From: a virus
Length of the DNA: 46,573 nucleotides
IMG/VR virus record: IMGVR_UViG_3300021197_000675
Span: 1 to 46,573 of that record
Strand: one strand, 5' to 3'
Shown here: piece after piece, positions 9,521 to 29,181 of the stretch
How positions within the stretch are numbered: the stretch's first letter is position 1
Layout: each line of letters starts with the position of its first letter
Notes under the pieces: generated by a model
What the model saw: the letters and a program-made list of their open reading frames with translations, nothing else
Told to the model about the DNA's origin: nothing
Database searches by the model: none
Translations under genes and position numbers: made by a program

Positions 9521-12500
9521 GACATCAACGAGGCAATGCCTTCCCGGCCTTTAATGACTTCACTGGCAGTGTCGTAAGGGAACATGGCCGCGTACTGAGA
9601 ACGAGTGGTAGGGGAAGCCGCTTGTTGTCCTTGAGCCGGGGGAGGTGGAGGTGGAGTGGGAGCCATAGGCATAGGCGCAACCGCCGGTTGAACCAAAGGT
9701 TCGCTAGATTGTGGCGCGGGCCGTGGTGCGGCCGCTACAGGCACTTCTTCGATTGTTTCGGTTTCTTCCATTTCAAATTCAGGAGACTGTAAATATTCAG
9801 TAATGTTTTGATAAGTAGTCGAACCCAAAATAGTTTCTAATTGAGGTTGTAGCGCAAGATGAAAATCACGCACGTCTTTGGGGTTGCGTATTTTTCGCAT
9901 CATTTGAGCGGCGACTTTTGGATCTTGAGCAGTTTCGATCATCAACGCCAAAGCAGCTTCGCTAGGTAACTTTTCTAAATATCTACTTGCTAATTCAGAA
10001 CCTAATTTTGCTGAAACAAGCGACCCTGACGACCCCCTCAATCCAATCTTTTCTTGAATACTTCGCATAAAACCACTAAACGTGCCAGCGCCCATTGCTC
10101 TTGCACCGGCTGAAACAAACATGTTGTTATCCAAGATTTCTTGAACAAATGCTTGGTCACCCTCAAGAGTTTGTCCGCGCATAAGACTTTTGTTAATCCG
10201 TTCTCCTATATCCGTAATGGTAACTAAACCGTTACGAAACTGATCGTCTACAACATTTTCTTCAACTAACACGTCTAAAATAGTTTTAGGATTTTTCTGA
10301 TTGCGATTAAGCGGTGCGGTTAAAAAATTGCCGAACGCGGCAAAGTCTATGATTCCAGTGTTGGGGTTGCGTGATTTTTCAATCGCTGCATTAAGAACAA
10401 CCTCTTTAAAACCGCGCACGGAGTTACCGGCGGCTGTTCCAAACTCTCCGCTGTCGGCTCTCTTGGCTATTTTTGCCAAACCCCTTAAACTTGCTTCAGG
10501 CGCATTAGTGCGTTTACTTCCATCTAAAATTGCAAGCATAGCTTCTACAGGTCTTTCGGGCACGTCTAAAAACATACGAAAAGCATCAATGTCTGCTTTC
10601 TGCGGTCCGTTGTAAATTCCTGCAAAATCTCTAGCCGGTCCCGTGGCACGTTGTACGCCCACACCACGCTTATCTTTTTTGAGTTTAAAACCGGAACCTA
10701 CAATGTCGTCGCGGTATTTATCTAACTGGGCTTGCAAAGTAGAAGCGTTTTTTAAATCTTCTTCTATTGCTTTCATCCCCGGCAGTTCTAAAACTTTTTG
10801 ATATTTATTAAGGACCTGATCTAACGCATTTAGGTTTATTTCGCCGCGTTGTTTGCCTTTAGACCGAATGATTCCTTCTCGGTTAGCAAACACGTCACGC
10901 AAAATTATTTCTTTTGCCCCACCTAATTCGTATTTCTTTAAAGCGCGTAACTCGTTAGCTTGCGCGGGCGTCACGTTTTTAATGGCAACGTCCATCGCTG
11001 TATCCAGTTGTTTAAAGTTTTGTGCGGTCATCGAACCCGACGTAACAATAAATTTACGAGCAAGCTCTAAAGGGTCCACGCGCTTTGCGCCGCTGGCATC
11101 CTTCGCAAGAAGTGTTCCACCAAACGCTCTGTCAAAAACTTCGTTTTTAGCATACGACAGTGCCCGGGCATTGTTAATGGCTTGTATTTGTTTTTCTACC
11201 GCTTCAATATTTTTGGCCGTAAAGCCAAGTTCTTCTAAAGATTCTCGCGTAGGAATAGCGCCAGACTTATCAAATTTTCCACCAATCGTCATTATGTCGT
11301 TTAAAGCCCGCCGTGCCATTCCGCCGTAATAACCGGTTTGATTTCCTCCGGCTTCTGTAGAGCCTTTTGTCCGGGCATTTCTTAACATTTGAGATCGAAA
11401 CTCTAACAAACGATTAATCGGCACATATGTATTGTCTATAATTTTTTCAATTTTTTTATTAGAATTTTCTACTAGTTTGTCGAGATTTGTAATCGAAGTG
11501 TCAATGCTGCCAAGGCGGGTAATTTTTTCATTTAAGTTGCGTTCTATTTCGTCAACGCCGCTGTTAATTTCACTAAGTTTGGAGTCATATTGACTTGCAA
11601 TTTCCATTTGCTCGTCTGTCATGTCAAGCACTGCAAGACCTGTCGTTTTTTCCGTTTCTTGACGTGGGCCAAGCTCGACTAAGGCACGTTGTGCGGTTGT
11701 TTCGGCTTCTTTTAAATCATTGTTTAAAACATTAACTTGACGTTCTAAAACACTTTTTTCTCCGCGTAAGCTAGAAAGCTGTCCAAAATTGTTTTCGATT
11801 TCAGTCAGTTGTTTTTTGTAAGTGTCACGATAAAGAGGGTCTATCGATTCTTTCATAAAATCTTGGAGGTACTTTATGTATAAACCTTCGGCTGCTTGCG
11901 AACCACCTCGTGCAGGGTTAGTTTTTTCTAGCCAAAAATTAAAAATTTCTTTAACCGGCGCTTCAATACGTTTATCTATTTTTTTCCATGCCCTGTTTTC
12001 TGCTTGTTCGATTAGTTTATAGGGTCGTTCTATTCCGCTTTCTATCAGAATAGCAGCGGCGTTATCCGCATCCCCTAACACATCGCCTTCCGGGACATAT
12101 TTAAAAGTGCCATCTTCTGTCACACGTTTAACACGACGACCATCTTGTCCTTTAGTGGCTAGTCGCTCACCTTGTTGCATGGCCCGTGCAATGCTGCCAT
12201 TGAGAGCCGCTTCCATAAGCTGTCGATAATATTCTTCTGCACTAAGACTGACCGCTTGCATGACGGCGGGACTATCAAACTGAGCAAGGTTGTCTAAAAT
12301 TGCCCCCATTTGTTGTACCGCTTCGGTAGATTGTCTAGCTAACTGTTTTTTACCACGATCAAGAGCGGCCGATCCCGACATGTCTGTTAACGTCGCTTGA
12401 AATATTTGCATAATTTCATCGCCAGTTTTTTCATAACCTGAAAACGGCGGAAGATTTTTTTCTCCTAACAACTCTTTGGGTATGCCCACGTCATCGGACT

Positions 12501-13737
12501 CTAATCTTCTGGCAATTTCTGCTGTGTCCACACCTTTGTACTCAGGAGGGTTAGCCCCCCTCTCTGCTACGGGAGTAGCGTTATAACGAGCCAATCGTTG
12601 TTCGTGAGCGGCTTGGCGTCCTGCGTCAACGTCATCTACTATTTGAGTTAAAACTTTAATCACTTGGTTTTCAGCAGCACCTTCGCCCGCCGCTGCCGCA
12701 CGTGCAGCTTCCCGTCTACCAAGAGCGTAAGCTATCCCTACCGGAGAAAAACCCGTTGCAATTTCAGCAGGAATTCTTAAATACAAGTTGCCCGGATCAA
12801 CCGTTTCAGCGACGGCTCCGGCTGCGCCCATTGCCGTACCTGCCGCCACAGCACCTGCCACACCTAGTTTAGGTGAACTAGCTCTCGCCGCTCTCGCCGT
12901 AGTCGCGCTTTTTTCTAAATTTCTTACCGCTTTTGCTAGGCTTGTTGCCATGCCTACATTGTTGGCCGCGTTTTCAAACAAAAAAGCTGACCCTAAGTTG
13001 ACAGGACTTACGTTGGGTACAAAGGCCCCTGTGCCCGCTTGTTGGATTTCTCCTCGGACACCCAAACCTAATGCTTTCCCTAACCCTGTTTTGGCAGCAC
13101 TTTCAATGGCACGGGTGTAAGCGAAAGGCGAGGCTAATGCGCCAATGGTAAACCCGGCAGTTTCGCCAAAGACCCGGCCCTTTTGTGCAGAAGGGAGCAA
13201 TTGTTGATCTTGACGACCAAGGTCTAAAGTTTCTTTAAGTTTATCTATACCCGCACGAGCCGGTATTGCGGCAGCCGTTGTGCCACCGATAAGTCCGATC
13301 AAACCTCCTGTGACAAAACCAAGTCCTGCACCAATAGTAGAGCCAACTCCGTAACCTGCTGCTGCTCCAAGGGGACCACGCCCGACAATAGTTCCTAACC
13401 CCGATCCTATTCGCCCGCCAATACCCGCACCAACCCGCGCCCCGGACCGTGCGCCAATACCACCGGCTGTTGTTCCTGCCGTACCACTAACCACACCAAC
13501 GGGAAGGGTAGTCGCTAATTCTTCAGCGGCCGCACCATAAGCGCCTTGATCACTTACATTAGCTACGTTGTATTGGATAATGTCTTCATCGGTTAACCCT
13601 GCTTTGCGGGCCGCGTCGTAATCGTAGTTACGCCTTTGAGAAACGTATTGGGCAATATCCGCTGCGTTCAGCCCTTCGACTTGTGCGGCACGAAGGTCGT
13701 ACTGAAGTTGCGGATTGTTGTCAAAAGGAGAAGCCAT
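9517..13737 (-). CDS. Very large (1406 aa) putative internal virion/ejection protein
   Basis: The largest gene in the window and nearly the last of the structural operon. The N-terminus has two short repeats ending in AGLTDEDIIQY and EGLNAADIAQY. A long Gly/Ala-rich, weakly hydrophobic segment follows (about 75-165), which could insert into membrane. The middle is largely helical, with a strong coiled coil near 640-760 (SVLERQVNVLNNDLKEAE). The C-terminus is Pro-rich (TPPPPPPAQGQQ), then a short tail. No lysozyme or transglycosylase motif was found. Size, position after the nozzle gene, and a helical Gly-rich make-up fit the ejection proteins of short-tailed phages (P22 gp16/gp20, T7 gp15/gp16). 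The role is inferred from context. Confidence 0.6.
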   Translation of the reverse strand: MASPFDNNPQLQYDLRAAQVEGLNAADIAQYVSQRRNYDYDAARKAGLTDEDIIQYNVANVSDQGAYGAAAEELATTLPVGVVSGTAGTTAGGIGARSGARVGAGIGGRIGSGLGTIVGRGPLGAAAGYGVGSTIGAGLGFVTGGLIGLIGGTTAAAIPARAGIDKLKETLDLGRQDQQLLPSAQKGRVFGETAGFTIGALASPFAYTRAIESAAKTGLGKALGLGVRGEIQQAGTGAFVPNVSPVNLGSAFLFENAANNVGMATSLAKAVRNLEKSATTARAARASSPKLGVAGAVAAGTAMGAAGAVAETVDPGNLYLRIPAEIATGFSPVGIAYALGRREAARAAAAGEGAAENQVIKVLTQIVDDVDAGRQAAHEQRLARYNATPVAERGANPPEYKGVDTAEIARRLESDDVGIPKELLGEKNLPPFSGYEKTGDEIMQIFQATLTDMSGSAALDRGKKQLARQSTEAVQQMGAILDNLAQFDSPAVMQAVSLSAEEYYRQLMEAALNGSIARAMQQGERLATKGQDGRRVKRVTEDGTFKYVPEGDVLGDADNAAAILIESGIERPYKLIEQAENRAWKKIDKRIEAPVKEIFNFWLEKTNPARGGSQAAEGLYIKYLQDFMKESIDPLYRDTYKKQLTEIENNFGQLSSLRGEKSVLERQVNVLNNDLKEAETTAQRALVELGPRQETEKTTGLAVLDMTDEQMEIASQYDSKLSEINSGVDEIERNLNEKITRLGSIDTSITNLDKLVENSNKKIEKIIDNTYVPINRLLEFRSQMLRNARTKGSTEAGGNQTGYYGGMARRALNDIMTIGGKFDKSGAIPTRESLEELGFTAKNIEAVEKQIQAINNARALSYAKNEVFDRAFGGTLLAKDASGAKRVDPLELARKFIVTSGSMTAQNFKQLDTAMDVAIKNVTPAQANELRALKKYELGGAKEIILRDVFANREGIIRSKGKQRGEINLNALDQVLNKYQKVLELPGMKAIEEDLKNASTLQAQLDKYRDDIVGSGFKLKKDKRGVGVQRATGPARDFAGIYNGPQKADIDAFRMFLDVPERPVEAMLAILDGSKRTNAPEASLRGLAKIAKRADSGEFGTAAGNSVRGFKEVVLNAAIEKSRNPNTGIIDFAAFGNFLTAPLNRNQKNPKTILDVLVEENVVDDQFRNGLVTITDIGERINKSLMRGQTLEGDQAFVQEILDNNMFVSAGARAMGAGTFSGFMRSIQEKIGLRGSSGSLVSAKLGSELASRYLEKLPSEAALALMIETAQDPKVAAQMMRKIRNPKDVRDFHLALQPQLETILGSTTYQNITEYLQSPEFEMEETETIEEVPVAAAPRPAPQSSEPLVQPAVAPMPMAPTPPPPPPAQGQQAASPTTRSQYAAMFPYDTASEVIKGREGIASLMS

Positions 13738-22996: not shown

Positions 22997-23440
22997 TTAT
23001 AGAGCTTTAGTTCTATTTAGTTCTGTCTGGACTGCAATAAAAAAATCTAAAAAATGCTCTACTTTTTCATCCTCATCATTAAACCTTTTTATTCGCACAT
23101 CGTAATTAACAGGACGCTCAAAAACTTTATTGGTATCTCCATATTTAGAAATCTGGATAGTGTCCATCCACACCATAAAATCGGCATTGAGACTATCTCG
23201 CCACTTGTTTATAGGACAAATAAAGTCTAAAAAAACTAACCCTTCTTTACCTTCAGCAGCGGATTTCATTCTGTGAAACTGCCTTAATCGTCCGTCTAAA
23301 GAAAAATCCCAATCCTCTGCTGCCGTTCTGACCTCATCAGCGTTGATGTGTGACCCACCGTACTTTTTAACTAATTTCTTAGCTAAAGTTGTTTTGCCGC
23401 TATCGGGCAATCCTGTCAGTAAGATCACACACTTTTTCAT
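22997..23440 (-). CDS. APS-kinase-like P-loop kinase
   Basis: This 147-aa kinase has Walker A GLPDSGKTT (10-18). HINADEVRTAAEDWDFS follows (about 31-47), which matches the D-x2-VR and GF-x-D segments of adenylylsulfate kinase. RLRQFHRM corresponds to the R-x6-R segment, and LVFLDFICP to the strand before the lid. It is shorter than CysC (about 200 aa) and diverges at the C-terminus, which ends in a helix (EHFLDFFIAVQ). If it is a true APS kinase it would make PAPS, the donor used by the sulfotransferase domain encoded 1.6 kb upstream in the same operon. Another small-molecule or protein kinase role is possible. It overlaps the 133-aa gene by four bases (ATGA). Confidence 0.7.
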   Translation of the reverse strand: MKKCVILLTGLPDSGKTTLAKKLVKKYGGSHINADEVRTAAEDWDFSLDGRLRQFHRMKSAAEGKEGLVFLDFICPINKWRDSLNADFMVWMDTIQISKYGDTNKVFERPVNYDVRIKRFNDEDEKVEHFLDFFIAVQTELNRTKAL

Positions 23441-23838
23441 AACGCATCGACTTCATCGTGAGTTGTAGCCGCATTAACAGCCGTGACTCTTGCTTCATAC
23501 GTGTCTTGTGCCGCAGCCACTGCCGCAGCGTCGTACTGAGTGCTAGGAAATTCGTCTATCTCTTTGTTCATTTCTGTTTGCACTACGGTTCGATAGGTGG
23601 CTTGAGCCTGTCCTATTAAACTTCCCTTACGCTCATCCACCGTGATGTCTCTAACGGCATAGACAATCTGAACGGGGTCTACTGAAATATCAAAGGTATG
23701 CCCGTCATAAGTTTGACGATCTGCTGTTAAGTCTGGTTTTACCTCAACCGCTGATTTCCAACCCGCTTCCCCCGCAGGAGGCTGCGTGTCCCAAACTTGT
23801 TTTACTTCTTCGTTTACTACTTGTACAAATAAAGACAT
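23437..23838 (-). CDS. Putative fibre-associated protein (133 aa)
   Basis: Residues 1-70 are beta-rich (VVNEEVKQVWDTQPPAGEAG, HTFDISVDPVQIVYAVRDIT). From about 75 onward the protein is helical (VQTEMNKEIDEFPSTQYDAA, EARVTAVNAATTHDEVDAL). A beta head followed by a helical tail is seen in phage tail-fibre assembly or hinge proteins, and the gene sits directly after the third RCC1 gene. The role is inferred from position. No conserved catalytic residues. Confidence 0.5.
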   Translation of the reverse strand: MSLFVQVVNEEVKQVWDTQPPAGEAGWKSAVEVKPDLTADRQTYDGHTFDISVDPVQIVYAVRDITVDERKGSLIGQAQATYRTVVQTEMNKEIDEFPSTQYDAAAVAAAQDTYEARVTAVNAATTHDEVDAL

Positions 23839-23867
23839 GAGTGTCTCCTTATATTAATAATTAATAA

Positions 23868-25088
23868 TTAACTAGTTTTGAGTAGCATAGGGTGAGTCGT
23901 ATTACAACTAAACGCAGGTAATGTTTTATTCCACGTAGTAAGAGAACCTATCTGTACCGGGGAGGAGTAATTAGTGGTGTTACCCAAACCTAGTCGGCCA
24001 TTAGTTCCCTGCCCCCAAGTCCATAAAGCGCCGCTTGTTGTAACACCGATAGCAAACGAATCACCCGCAGCAACATCTGACCAAGTAGTCAATGCACCTA
24101 CCTGTACTGGAGAAGAACGACTAGAGGTGTTACTTGTCCCTAATTGGCCAATACTGTTATTACCCCATGCCCAAAGAGTTCCGTCTGTTTTAACAGCGTA
24201 AGTAGAATTATTGCCTGTTGCCAATTTACTCCACGTAGTAAGAGCGCCAACCTGTACTGGAGAACTACGAGTGGTAGTAGTACCATCGCCTAGTTGACCA
24301 TTACCATTTAGTCCCCACATCCAAAGCGCGCCGTCTGTTTTAATTGCTGCTACAAAGTAATTTCCCGCAGATATGGTTAACCAAGTAGTTAATGCACCTA
24401 CCTGTACTGGAGAAGAATAATTGGTAGTGTTGCCTAGACCTAAATTTCCGTAATAGTTATACCCCCAAACATAAATCGCACCGGAATTATTGGTAGCTAC
24501 GCTAAATTGTTGTCCCGCAGCTATTGCTGCCCATGTAGTAAGAGCGCCTACTTGAACTGGAGAGGAGCGGTTACTAGTAGTACCATCACCTAACCTTCCT
24601 TTGTAATTATTTCCCCACGCCCAAAGCGTACCATCTGTTTTATTAGCTAAAACGAAGTTGTAACCCGCAGAAGCCTTCAGCCACGTAGTAAGAGCGCCTA
24701 TCTGTACCGGAGAAGAATAATTAGTGGTATTGCCTACTCCTACTTGGCCGCTTGAGTTAAACCCCCATGCGTACATTTGACCCAAAGCATTGATAGCGAC
24801 AGTATGCTGACCACCCGAATTAACCTTACTCCAAGTAGTTAGCGCACCTACCTGAACTGGGGACGAGTAACTAGTTATGTTACCTACCCCTAATTGTCCA
24901 TTAGCATTATATCCCCAACCCCATAGCTCTTTAGGAAGTGTAGGTAAAGGCCACAGACCCCGCTGCTTATAATCTGCTACTTCATCTAAAGTCCATATGC
25001 CTGACGCAGAACCGCCCTCGCCATCAGTAGGGCCAACAACAGTTGGGGCTGTTTTGTTGATAAAACCACCGGGCCACTTTCCACTCAT
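23868..25088 (-). CDS. RCC1-repeat beta-propeller tail adhesin candidate (406 aa)
   Basis: After about 50 N-terminal residues (KWPGGFINKTAP...) the protein is seven RCC1 repeats, each about 50 aa and each ending in SSPVQ[VI]G[AS]LTTW. The blade core is W-x-WG-x-N-x-x-G-x-LG-x-G[ND]. Seven repeats match the seven-bladed propeller of eukaryotic RCC1. In a phage tail operon this suggests a virion-surface binding protein; RCC1 domains there have no chromatin role. The N-terminal stub could be the attachment to the tail or a shared anchor, as its KWP and DEVADYKQRGLWP segments differ from the propeller. The nearest paralogues are the genes at 26863 and 28045. Confidence 0.8.
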   Translation of the reverse strand: MSGKWPGGFINKTAPTVVGPTDGEGGSASGIWTLDEVADYKQRGLWPLPTLPKELWGWGYNANGQLGVGNITSYSSPVQVGALTTWSKVNSGGQHTVAINALGQMYAWGFNSSGQVGVGNTTNYSSPVQIGALTTWLKASAGYNFVLANKTDGTLWAWGNNYKGRLGDGTTSNRSSPVQVGALTTWAAIAAGQQFSVATNNSGAIYVWGYNYYGNLGLGNTTNYSSPVQVGALTTWLTISAGNYFVAAIKTDGALWMWGLNGNGQLGDGTTTTRSSPVQVGALTTWSKLATGNNSTYAVKTDGTLWAWGNNSIGQLGTSNTSSRSSPVQVGALTTWSDVAAGDSFAIGVTTSGALWTWGQGTNGRLGLGNTTNYSSPVQIGSLTTWNKTLPAFSCNTTHPMLLKTS

Positions 25089-26854
25089 TTGACTCTCCGC
25101 AGTGCCTTTTTCTCACTAAGGCGCTCTTTAATTTTATTAAACGGGGCTTCCCAATCACCAAAGGATTCTTGCCTAAGTAGCTTCATTGTATCGTAGTAAG
25201 GACACGTATCGCCCTCTTGCGCGTACAGAAAGTAAGGCATGACAGGAATAACCGTCCAAGTCTCAACACCCATAGCAGCCGCTAAATGACTGACTGAAGT
25301 ACAAGAAGATATAACCAAATCACACGAAGCCGTAGCCTGTCGAGTGTCTTCCCAAGAATCGAGTGGAACCTGTTTAACCCAACGTGGGCAAGCTTCCGCA
25401 CCTTCATCGCGTTGTAAGGAAATAAAATCCGCATCGATATCTTTTAAGGCATTAAACATTAACTGGTAAGGGAATTTCTTTTGGTGCTCCTCTTCAAACG
25501 CCATCTGTCCTTGCCATCGCAGACCAATGCGCTTACGAAACCCTTTAATAGTTTTAGGCTTAGTAATGTACGGTTCGCCTGTTAAGTCTTCTAACTCAAA
25601 CCCAAGTGGCACAACGGCTGACATACCTTGCACATAAAAGTCGTGATAAACGCCCTGACAGCAATCGTGCTGGACAACCGCGCTTACGCCCTCTACATCG
25701 GTAAATAGTGTCACCAAAGAGCCAGAGCAAGCGACAATGACTTTACAGCCTCTAGCAGCAATGTGCTTGGCATAGCGTACTTGGTGTATCTGATCACCTA
25801 ATCCACCTTCTAAATTAAGCAAAACAACGCCTTTAGACTTCCCATCCCACGGCGGTGTGGGTGAGTTAGGGGGTGAATTACCAAAGACACCGACTATGCG
25901 ACCACGATCCATCAGTTGGTAGCCTTCCTGAATCTTGCCTTGACGCAGCACATACCACCCACGATTAAATGCCGCACGGTGATTGTTTGGTTCATCTTTT
26001 TCAATTTTCTGGGCTAACTGCCAACCCTCTGCAAAACTACCCATCCTAGAAGCACTTAGCTGAAGGTCTAAATCATGTAACTCAGGGGTGGTGCGTGGTT
26101 TGTCTAACCAAAACTCTGGCTGACAAAAAGTGCTGTAGTGATGCTTTAAAACGTCCCGTGGGTCTTCGCTATGCTGCTTCGCAAGCACTGGCTGAACATC
26201 GTGCATACCCGCATAGCCATGTACCTCTTCATCGTCTTCTTGGACACTTGTACCGTCAATAGCCTCAAAGTCGTAGTCAAAGTCCTCTAACCCCAAGAAG
26301 GCATGTATACGGTCAAGCTGTGCCTTTGGGTCTGCAATTAAATCTTCGTACTCAACGATACAAAAACATTCTGGGTCATATTCATAACCAGTTTGTAGTG
26401 TAATATATGCCGCTTTTAAATTATCTGCCAACGCGCCCGAATAGATAAAATCATCGAGATTATCGGGTTTAGCTACACGCACGAAAGAGGCCATACAGTC
26501 GGGTATAGAGCGCACAGTAGCAATAATTTTAGGTTTAGCTCCCACCACCTCAGTCATTGCTTGCATAACCTGTGGAATAGGCCAACCACGGCCCTTATCT
26601 ATTACAACAGGCGCATCAAACTCTTTATAAAACGCATCAATAGTTCCACGAACAGAATCGACCAGAATCTTGTGATTTTTTTCATCTGATCTAAGAAGAC
26701 CTGTTGAAGCCCACGTATTAACCATGCCGTCGATGGCAAACACAAGCCCAGATGTTGTGGACACATGAGTCTGTTTATTTTGGTTGAGTATTGCCGCCAG
26801 TACCGTAGAACCGGATCGGTGTACGCCTGACATAAAGTGTAATTGTTTTTGCAT
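25085..26854 (-). CDS. Sulfotransferase - TPR - glycosyltransferase fusion protein
   Basis: This 589-aa protein starts at ATG 26854, eight bases after the stop of the preceding RCC1 gene. A start 21 codons further upstream would overlap that gene by 55 bases. Residues 1-265 are a sulfotransferase domain: the PAPS 5'-phosphosulfate loop SGVHRSGSTVL (9-19) and a 3'-phosphate segment ATVRSIPDCMASF (112-124). Residues about 270-325 look like one or two TPR-type helices. Residues 340-540 resemble GT-B TPR-glycosyltransferases of the GT9 kind: GGLGDQIHQVRYAKH, then ATASCDLVISSCTSVSHLAA. It probably sulfates and glycosylates a surface structure, perhaps the RCC1 adhesins beside it or host envelope glycans. 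The domain fusion is seen; the substrate is unknown. Confidence 0.8.
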   Translation of the reverse strand: MQKQLHFMSGVHRSGSTVLAAILNQNKQTHVSTTSGLVFAIDGMVNTWASTGLLRSDEKNHKILVDSVRGTIDAFYKEFDAPVVIDKGRGWPIPQVMQAMTEVVGAKPKIIATVRSIPDCMASFVRVAKPDNLDDFIYSGALADNLKAAYITLQTGYEYDPECFCIVEYEDLIADPKAQLDRIHAFLGLEDFDYDFEAIDGTSVQEDDEEVHGYAGMHDVQPVLAKQHSEDPRDVLKHHYSTFCQPEFWLDKPRTTPELHDLDLQLSASRMGSFAEGWQLAQKIEKDEPNNHRAAFNRGWYVLRQGKIQEGYQLMDRGRIVGVFGNSPPNSPTPPWDGKSKGVVLLNLEGGLGDQIHQVRYAKHIAARGCKVIVACSGSLVTLFTDVEGVSAVVQHDCCQGVYHDFYVQGMSAVVPLGFELEDLTGEPYITKPKTIKGFRKRIGLRWQGQMAFEEEHQKKFPYQLMFNALKDIDADFISLQRDEGAEACPRWVKQVPLDSWEDTRQATASCDLVISSCTSVSHLAAAMGVETWTVIPVMPYFLYAQEGDTCPYYDTMKLLRQESFGDWEAPFNKIKERLSEKKALRRVK

Positions 26855-26862
26855 AGTATAAG

Positions 26863-28035
26863 TTATTCCTGAATGGCAAAACAGGAGTTTTGAGGAGCAC
26901 GAAATGTGGAAATCCAAGAAGTTAATGCACCTACTTGTATTGGACTATTTGTAATTTTTGTTGCCCCAGTACCTAGTCCTCCAAAGCTGCTGTAGCCACA
27001 ACTCCAAAGCTGCCCTGTTGTAGTTAAACCCGTAAAGAAGCCATTTCTAGCAACCGCATCTGACCATGTAGTTAAAGCGCCGACTTGTTTCGGACTGTTA
27101 TATACAGTGGTGTAGTTTCCGTGGCCTAGTTGCCCAACACTGTTTAACCCCCAAGTCCACAAAGTGCCGTCTGTTTTAACGGCAGAGCAAAAGTCTTTTC
27201 CAGCTGTTCCCTCTCTCACTACCCAGTTAGTCAACGCGCCGACTTGGACAGGGGAAGAGTAGGAAGTGGTATTACTCTGTCCTAACTGTCCACTATTATT
27301 AGCACCCCATGACCATAAAGTACCATCCGTCGCAGTGGCAATCGTAAACAAGCTTCCTGTACAAGCATCTTTCCAAGTGGTTAATGCCCCAACCTGTACC
27401 GGAGAAGAAGTATTGGTGGTATTACCTTGGCCTAGTTGACCTTGTGCATTTGCCCCCCAAGCCCATAGTGTGCCATTAGTTTGAGTCGCCACAACTGAGC
27501 CTGCATTCGCCCCAGAAACCGATACTGAGGCCCACGTAGTAAGTGCGCCTATCTGTACTGGGGAAGAAATAGTGGTGCTATTGTTGTGACCGAGTTGCCC
27601 GTTACTAGCACTACCCCACGACCACAGAGTACCGTCTGTTTTAAGTGCCACAGTACAGTCATAGCCTGTTGATACAGAAGACCACGTAGTAAGAGCGCCT
27701 ACCTGAACTGGAGAAGAATAGGTAGTAGTGCTGCCTAAGCCTAGTTGACCGCTACCGTTGCTTCCCCAAGCCCATAGTGTACCGTTTGCTTTTATACCTA
27801 GAGCAAAACCCCCATCAAAAGGGCCGTCCAAATCTGCCCAATTATCCCCCGCACCTAGTTGCACTGGAGAGGAGTAGCTAGTGGTGCTGCCTAAACCTAA
27901 TCTCCCATTAGAACCACGACCCCAAACCCACAAAAAAGTAAACGGCGCAGGCCACTTACTCGCAGCTTTAGCTTGCGCTTGTGCTTGGAGGTTCCACCTA
28001 CCTGAGTATTGGACACCTGATATTATAATTGGCAT
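26863..28035 (-). CDS. RCC1-repeat beta-propeller tail adhesin candidate (390 aa)
   Basis: Seven RCC1 repeats follow an N-terminal segment ([20 protein letters not shown]) that differs from those of the two paralogues. Blade ends vary more here ([36 protein letters not shown]). Several blades are almost identical to ones in the neighbouring genes, which is consistent with exchange between them. The gene is followed closely by the sulfotransferase/glycosyltransferase gene. It is probably a receptor-binding or accessory fibre protein. Confidence 0.8.
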
Positions 28036-28044
28036 ATCAATTCC

Positions 28045-29181
28045 TTAAAATTGTAAAGCAAGCACACCATGACTTTGTGACATTTTAGGTAAAAAAGACC
28101 ACGCAGTAAGAGCACCAATTTGTACAGGGGAAGAATAATTAGTGGTATTGCCTACCCCTAATTGACCTTTGTGATTATATCCCCAAGACCAAAAAGCGCC
28201 GTCGGTTTTGATAGCGTAGGAAGTGTAAGGGCCACCAGCGATTTTATCCCATGTAGTCAATGCCCCTACCTGCACAGGGGAAGAATAATTAGTTGTATTG
28301 CCTTGTCCTAAACCACCGTAGTTGTTACCTCCCCAAGCATAAAGTTGACCAGCAGTATTGATCGCAAGTACATGATAAGCCCCTGAAGCTATTTTTAGCC
28401 ACGTAGTAAGAGCGCCGACTTGTACTGGGGAGGAAATTCCAACGGAAACAGTGCCTTGACCTAGTTGGCCTCGATCATTCTTACCGAACATCCAGATAGT
28501 GCCATCTGTTTTAATGGCTGCGGCCCAACCATAACCCGCAGTTATGTCTAGCCATGTAGTAAGAGCGCCAACCTGTACCGGAGAGGAATAATTAGTGGTA
28601 TTACCTAAACCTAGTCGGCCATTTTGTCCGTAGCCCCAACTCCAAAGAGTGCCGTCTGTTTTAATTGCATGACTAGCATAAAAGCCCCCAGCGATAGTGG
28701 CCCACGTAGTAAGAGCGCCAACTTGTGCTGGAGTATTGACTACTCCCGTAGTACCTTGACCAGTGGCTCCAAAAGCGTTTTGACCCCATGCCCATAGTGT
28801 GCCGTCTGTTTTAATGGCTAGGCCGTCGTTTCCACCCGCAGCAATTTGTGACCAGTTAGTGTAAACACCGACTTGTATGGGGGTCGAAAACACACTACCA
28901 GTAGTGCCGTTACCTAGTTGCCCAGCGGAGTTATTCCCCCAAGTCCAAAGCGTGTTGTTGTTTTTAATTGCTCCCGCCCAACCATAACCCCCTGAAGCTG
29001 TAAGCCACTCCGTAATACCCACTTGTACTGGAGAAGATCGGTCAACGGTATCACCCAAGCCTAGTTGACCTCTGTGATTATATCCCCAACTAAAAACATC
29101 ACTAGAACTCAAACTGGTCTGGGTCGCCAATGGATCAAACCCCGGCTTTACAATAAAACCTTTATCACTACCAATAGGCAT
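28045..29181 (-). CDS. RCC1-repeat beta-propeller tail adhesin candidate (378 aa)
   Basis: The first RCC1 gene to be transcribed, with ribosome site GGAG before ATG 29181. Seven repeats are visible, three sharing NTTNYSSPVQ[VI]GALT[TA]W. The first three repeats are more diverged ([35 protein letters not shown]). The N-terminal 30 residues (IGSDKGFIVKPGFDPL) may anchor the propeller. The gene lies ten bases from the small beta protein at 29192. The phage-tail role is inferred from the operon. Confidence 0.8.
   Translation of the reverse strand: MPIGSDKGFIVKPGFDPLATQTSLSSSDVFSWGYNHRGQLGLGDTVDRSSPVQVGITEWLTASGGYGWAGAIKNNNTLWTWGNNSAGQLGNGTTGSVFSTPIQVGVYTNWSQIAAGGNDGLAIKTDGTLWAWGQNAFGATGQGTTGVVNTPAQVGALTTWATIAGGFYASHAIKTDGTLWSWGYGQNGRLGLGNTTNYSSPVQVGALTTWLDITAGYGWAAAIKTDGTIWMFGKNDRGQLGQGTVSVGISSPVQVGALTTWLKIASGAYHVLAINTAGQLYAWGGNNYGGLGQGNTTNYSSPVQVGALTTWDKIAGGPYTSYAIKTDGAFWSWGYNHKGQLGVGNTTNYSSPVQIGALTAWSFLPKMSQSHGVLALQF

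Follow-up and report, generated by a model that had tools for sequence, protein, structure and literature searches.

A predicted sulfotransferase-glycosyltransferase fusion encoded among RCC1-repeat genes of aquatic phages, with the phage's own adhesins as candidate substrates

We describe here a locus in a 46,573-nucleotide stretch of viral DNA (positions 1 to 46,573 of the IMG/VR record IMGVR_UViG_3300021197_000675, hereafter the window), which belongs to a virus record of 56,748 bases. Its central gene is predicted to encode a protein that fuses a sulfotransferase to a glycosyltransferase (GT) through a TPR-like linker (Table 1). The placement of this gene among three RCC1 genes, noticed in an earlier sequence-only reading of this DNA, was confirmed: each of the three encodes seven RCC1 repeats (Pfam RCC1, E-values from 1e-59 to 1e-78), and the stop of the fusion gene overlaps the start of the gene for RCC1-repeat protein C by 4 bp. 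A gene for a kinase resembling adenosine 5'-phosphosulfate (APS) kinases lies further downstream.

Table 1. Features of the locus within the window (aa, amino acids).
Feature	Coordinates	Strand	Length or residues	Remarks
RCC1-repeat protein A	28045..29181	(-)	378 aa	
RCC1-repeat protein B	26863..28035	(-)	390 aa	directly upstream of the fusion; candidate substrate/adhesin
Predicted fusion: sulfotransferase, TPR-like linker, GT-B (GT9/TibC-like) glycosyltransferase	25085..26854	(-)	589 aa	
Sulfotransferase half of the fusion	26240..26854	(-)	residues ~1-205	Pfam, profile, fold, alignments
TPR-like helical linker of the fusion	25865..26092	(-)	residues ~255-330	possible substrate-binding part; weak
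GT-B glycosyltransferase half of the fusion	25115..25849	(-)	residues ~336-580	fold matches, motifs
RCC1-repeat protein C	23868..25088	(-)	406 aa	candidate substrate/adhesin
Conserved protein	23437..23838	(-)	133 aa	between RCC1 gene C and the kinase; locus marker in relatives
APS-kinase-like P-loop kinase	22997..23440	(-)	147 aa	1.6 kb downstream of the fusion

The reading frame of the fusion is open and its longest form begins at a TTG at position 26917, but we preferred the ATG at 26854 because this start is kept in 32 aligned relatives. Homologues at 65-95% identity were present in 43 viral contigs, with 56 non-redundant fusion loci in total, and the fusion is thus more than a chance occurrence. 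Its sequence predicts a single enzyme, carried by a family of aquatic phages, in which a sulfate-transferring half is joined to a sugar-transferring one.

The assignment of the N-terminal half to the sulfotransferases is solid at the level of sequence. Pfam Sulfotransfer_3 (PF13469) matched residues 7-192 at 6.6e-15 (56.4 bits for a cut-off of 27), and Sulfotransfer_1 matched at 1.1e-6. With a profile built from 32 fusion relatives, human TPST2 was the top match in the PDB (5.9e-5), and TPST2 and TPST1 also came first for this half in a Foldseek search of the fusion model. The sequence-only reading had called a sulfotransferase with a loop binding 3'-phosphoadenosine 5'-phosphosulfate (PAPS), and this call stood. 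The motif G10-V-H-R13-S-G-S-T17, of the 5'-phosphosulfate-binding (5'-PSB) type, was invariant or nearly so among relatives, and in a divergent alignment reaching down to 38% identity R13-S14-G15-S16-T17, D86, K87, R89, W91, R115 and S123 were all invariant; a loss of PAPS-binding residues was looked for in these motifs and none was found. Following the motifs of PAPS-dependent sulfotransferases, we take the R13SGST17 region to be the 5'-PSB loop and R115...S123 to be the 3'-phosphate-binding (3'-PB) region.

The C-terminal half is predicted to adopt a GT-B fold. Its Foldseek matches included TibC (E-value of 2.8e-5), WaaF (2.0e-4) and WaaC (2.4e-4), with modest TM-scores, as well as viral proteins named GT9, Aah/TibC and RfaF. 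The motifs GGLGDQ (D354), SSCTSVxHLA (H523) and R561-Q562 were invariant down to 38% identity. Since Asp-110 is the candidate base of TibC (PMC4358343), D354 in GGLGDQ would by analogy be its natural counterpart. A GT half of this type was also found in Synechococcus phage BUCT-ZZ01 (L130:6848-8572), with a C-terminal methyltransferase-like extension, no sulfotransferase and an RCC1-type gene adjacent.

The neighborhood of the fusion suggests the RCC1 proteins as its partners. An RCC1 gene was located at 300 bp or less in 53 of the 56 non-redundant fusion loci; these counts, made after removal of near-duplicates, are of sequences and not of independent events, since many of the loci are related by descent and keep the same gene order. 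In a separately collected set of 47 non-redundant loci with a free-standing phage sulfotransferase, that gene directly adjoined a propeller gene of the RCC1 or Kelch-like type in 25, as in phage S-SKS1, where Kelch propeller-repeat genes flank the sulfotransferase on both sides. By comparison, such a neighbor was seen in none of 50 control loci that have the kinase but lack a sulfotransferase (0/50); this control is a convenience set centered on another gene and was not drawn at random from phage genes. In one relative (L043), the N-terminus of the RCC1 gene is retained in the gene that lies downstream of the fusion, but the remainder differs; receptor-binding proteins often keep their N-terminus while the remainder varies.

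Cyanophage-type sulfotransferase genes were located between two Kelch-like repeat genes rich in SSYGYFGGG (L131:1663-4849, L261, L268). One scan of genome contigs recovered RCC1 and fusion genes in metagenome-assembled genomes of unrelated bacteria (L138, L139, L140, L142), which are probably phage contigs within these bins. A tyrosine in the RCC1 repeats was considered as the sulfation site: Y precedes SSP in 267 of 542 RCC1 repeats from fusion loci and in 10 of 100 from loci with stand-alone sulfotransferases. We do not rely on this candidate, as the RCC1 subtypes differ between the two sets and phage S-SRM01 is a counter-case, its sulfotransferase adjoining RCC1 repeats that lack Y before SSP. 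The portal protein of the window resembles those of pelagiphages, 023Pt_psg01, DSL-LC04 and roseophages at 42-52% identity, too distant for a host to be named. Two portal relatives, 023Pt_psg01 and HTVC023P (L143:43176-45094, L144:43038-47988), carry genes for 2-oxoglutarate (2OG)-Fe(II) oxygenases close to their tail-fibre region, at the place taken by the fusion in the window; these may represent another kind of adhesin modification.

The gene that the sequence-only reading had called APS-kinase-like indeed belongs to the APS-kinase fold family. Pfam APS_kinase matched it with 25.4 bits, above the cut-off of 21.1, although AAA_33 scored slightly better (27.2). In a profile search, the main coherent group of matches consisted of APS kinases and PAPS synthetases (1.4e-10 and below); an adenylate-kinase chain outscored them by summing several weak stretches. 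The AlphaFold model had a pLDDT (predicted local distance difference test) of 92, and all of its 33 best PDB fold matches (33/33) were APS kinases or enzymes containing one. The 133-aa protein encoded between this gene and RCC1 gene C received no family name from NCBIfam, PHROGs or Pfam; a role in tail-fibre assembly is only a guess.

Taken together, we propose, with a probability of about 0.5, that the RCC1 adhesins of the phage itself are modified by the fusion enzyme, which would attach to them both sulfate and a sugar, probably heptose. The RCC1 beta-propeller proteins would serve as virion adhesins and the locus as an adhesin-modification cassette. During infection, the fusion would perhaps grip the RCC1 proteins through its TPR-like middle; its GT-B half would transfer a sugar, most likely heptose from ADP-heptose, and its sulfotransferase half would transfer sulfate from PAPS, either to the RCC1 proteins directly or to the newly attached sugar. 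The kinase would turn APS into PAPS, topping up the sulfate donor, and relatives equipped with a nucleotidyltransferase and HldE/HldD-like genes would have a greater capacity of their own to produce both donors. We propose the RCC1 proteins as substrate by analogy with FlmG and TibC. The analysis establishes the families and folds, the conserved motifs and the linkage of the genes; beyond this we infer the substrate, the sugar, the order of the steps, APS as substrate of the kinase and the benefit, which could be altered adhesion, charge or protection.

A series of observations weighs against this proposal. The structure model of the fusion had a mean pLDDT of 64. The TPR helices of the sequence-only reading appeared in it at residues 260-320, with low confidence, but TPR_16 remained below its family cut-off in the linker (E=0.24); in the L141 relative its E-value was 0.021. 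The GT9-like glycosyltransferase fared similarly: its GT-B fold near TibC, WaaF and WaaC was recovered, but Pfam Glyco_transf_9 scored 11.1 bits for a cut-off of 22, its best E-value among 10 fusion relatives was 0.028, and a profile of the GT half alone matched no solved structure in the PDB by sequence. GT9 is thus a fold-level call, for which the sequence family gave no match above its cut-off. By a count of positions along TPST2, the catalytic glutamate of the TPSTs presumably falls on T34, so that tyrosine may not be the acceptor and tyrosine sulfation is doubtful. The RCC1 proteins are likely adhesins by their position among the tail genes. As for the kinase, it lacks the lid segment, being about 26 residues short relative to the APS kinase of L141, and the N of DRxxN, an APS-contact position, is replaced by Q. 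Because of these two features, and because it widely missed the cut-off of the NCBIfam apsK equivalog TIGR00455 (23.2 bits for 138.7), we call it APS-kinase-like only, and not an established APS kinase. It was present in 20 of the 38 informative fusion loci, in which the sequence includes the 133-aa marker gene and extends at least 1.2 kb past it; the co-occurrence expected in relatives thus held for the fusion with RCC1 genes but only partly for the kinase. In the broad kinase family (55 non-redundant loci retrieved with the kinase as query), a sulfotransferase was found within 1.5 kb in only 4 of 55. Finally, the window record contains no nucleotidyltransferase and no hld genes.

The strongest alternative, that the kinase is unrelated to sulfation, has a fair chance in our view, somewhat below that of the adhesin proposal itself. 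The kinase would act on another substrate, for example with an NMNAT-like partner in the metabolism of nicotinamide adenine dinucleotide (NAD; NadR-like) or of nucleotide sugars, and its placement would be incidental. Most kinase loci indeed lack a sulfotransferase, an NMNAT-like nucleotidyltransferase is fused or near in 35 of the 55, the closest PDB relative of this nucleotidyltransferase is an archaeal NMNAT and not ATP sulfurylase, and the missing lid would fit such a role. On the other hand, the fold and profile matches of the kinase are to APS kinases, and it abuts sulfotransferases in several unrelated contexts: L090 and L121 each have the two genes overlapping by a few bases, with the order reversed in L121, and in L094 and L096 a fusion of 38% identity runs directly into a kinase-nucleotidyltransferase. 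Furthermore, a Woesearchaeota-binned contig (L141:4664-9083) encodes a full APS kinase (PF01583, 4.4e-59) to which a similar nucleotidyltransferase is fused, close to a 795-aa sulfotransferase-GT-methyltransferase protein, an arrangement that favors sulfate activation, although the NMNAT-like resemblance of the nucleotidyltransferase speaks against certainty. The earlier suggestion that the phage makes its own PAPS therefore survives in part: the kinase is there, but the window has no sulfurylase-like partner for it, its lid is missing, and it is optional in fusion loci and common where no sulfotransferase occurs.

Many phages (L051, L073, L084, L094, L110, L128 and others), including Stenotrophomonas phage Suzuki, have an NMNAT-like HxGH nucleotidyltransferase either fused to the APS-kinase-like kinase or encoded next to it; the pair is possibly a small PAPS synthase or an NAD-related one. 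In three relatives (L203, positions 10538-13511; L204; L186), HldE-II-like, cupin, HldE-I-like and HldD-like genes form a run after the kinase-nucleotidyltransferase, and part of this run occurs in L185 and L140; in these loci it lies next to RCC1 genes and the sulfotransferase-GT fusion. The NCBIfam matches of the hld-like genes were strong but below the equivalog cut-offs (TIGR02199, 2.8e-49; TIGR02198, 1.1e-30; TIGR02197, 2.8e-64). As the hld genes are missing from the window record, a heptose donor for the window enzyme is a prediction carried over from these relatives. A broader version is that phages use the one fused enzyme to sulfate and glycosylate their own propeller adhesins, and that some of them encode both donor pathways, with ADP-heptose synthesis on one side and, on the other, a small PAPS synthase whose nucleotidyltransferase would act on sulfate; this is a tentative suggestion that we consider less likely than not.

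The sequence-only reading had left the target between the phage's own adhesins and host glycans. The second option, modification of the host surface (lipopolysaccharide core, capsule or another glycan), for instance to block superinfection or alter recognition, appears improbable to us. Sulfotransferases often act on glycans, and the lipopolysaccharide-acting GT9 enzymes WaaC and WaaF are among the fold matches. However, the fusion lies in the late structural region with RCC1 genes adjacent in nearly all loci, other phage sulfotransferases also adjoin propeller adhesin genes, and no membrane or secretion feature was noticed in the fusion, though none was specifically searched for. The RCC1 adhesins thus stand as the better-inferred target, with no specific support for the host surface or superinfection exclusion. 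Least probable of all is a non-catalytic or differently used sulfotransferase half in a protein that only glycosylates RCC1: position 12 of the window protein is H in place of P (GVHRSGST) and, by position count, a TPST-like glutamate appears to be absent from the expected place, but the residues invariant to 38% identity suggest that PAPS binding is retained, and the kinase is linked to the sulfotransferase.

The neighborhood counts give a specific, testable answer for phage sulfotransferases, namely that they act on the adhesin whose gene adjoins their own. If the proposed modification of RCC1 adhesins is correct, phages modify their attachment proteins chemically once these have been translated, and the adhesin sequence might not be the only determinant of host range, to which an enzyme and the donor pathways of host or phage could also contribute; sulfation would then be a virion modification that answers what phage sulfotransferases do. 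The component parts are of known kinds; in the open-licence literature searched, neither the fusion nor the sulfation of adhesins was found to be described, and the sequence-only reading knew of no described phage system with this exact set.

Among known systems, TibC, a member of the bacterial autotransporter heptosyltransferase (BAHT) family with an iron finger, a beta-hairpin thumb and an N-terminal beta-barrel, puts heptose from ADP-heptose on an adhesin (PMC4358343). It is the nearest solved GT match to the phage GT-B fold, and ADP-heptose-type genes accompany some relatives of the window locus; the phage protein has instead a sulfotransferase and a TPR-like part N-terminal to the GT, and no sequence match to TibC. 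FlmG of Caulobacter, in which a TPR part precedes a C-terminal GT-B, performs cytoplasmic O-glycosylation of flagellins (PMC7591256); the fusion resembles it in layout and in its proposed surface-protein target, whereas FlmG has no sulfotransferase and uses pseudaminic acid as donor. TPST1 and TPST2 are the best profile and fold matches of the sulfotransferase half, but the phage enzyme is fused to a GT and apparently lacks their catalytic glutamate, by the same position count. The phage kinase shares with APS kinases and PAPS synthetases the fold, the P-loop and the DxxR and FS..xR motifs, and differs in its 147 aa, the absent lid and the N-to-Q change in the APS-contact region. In mycobacteriophages Che8 and Rita, phage-encoded glycosyltransferases modify the virion, as reported in PMC11256854, but there the glycosylated part is the capsid, not an adhesin, and no sulfation is involved. 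Further parallels are the stand-alone phage sulfotransferases of Synechococcus phages S-SKS1 and S-SRM01 and of OM43 phage contigs, whose function was stated as unclear in 2023 (PMC10580990): they belong to the same Sulfotransfer_3 family at 27-29% identity and likewise lie beside propeller-repeat genes, but are not fused to a GT.
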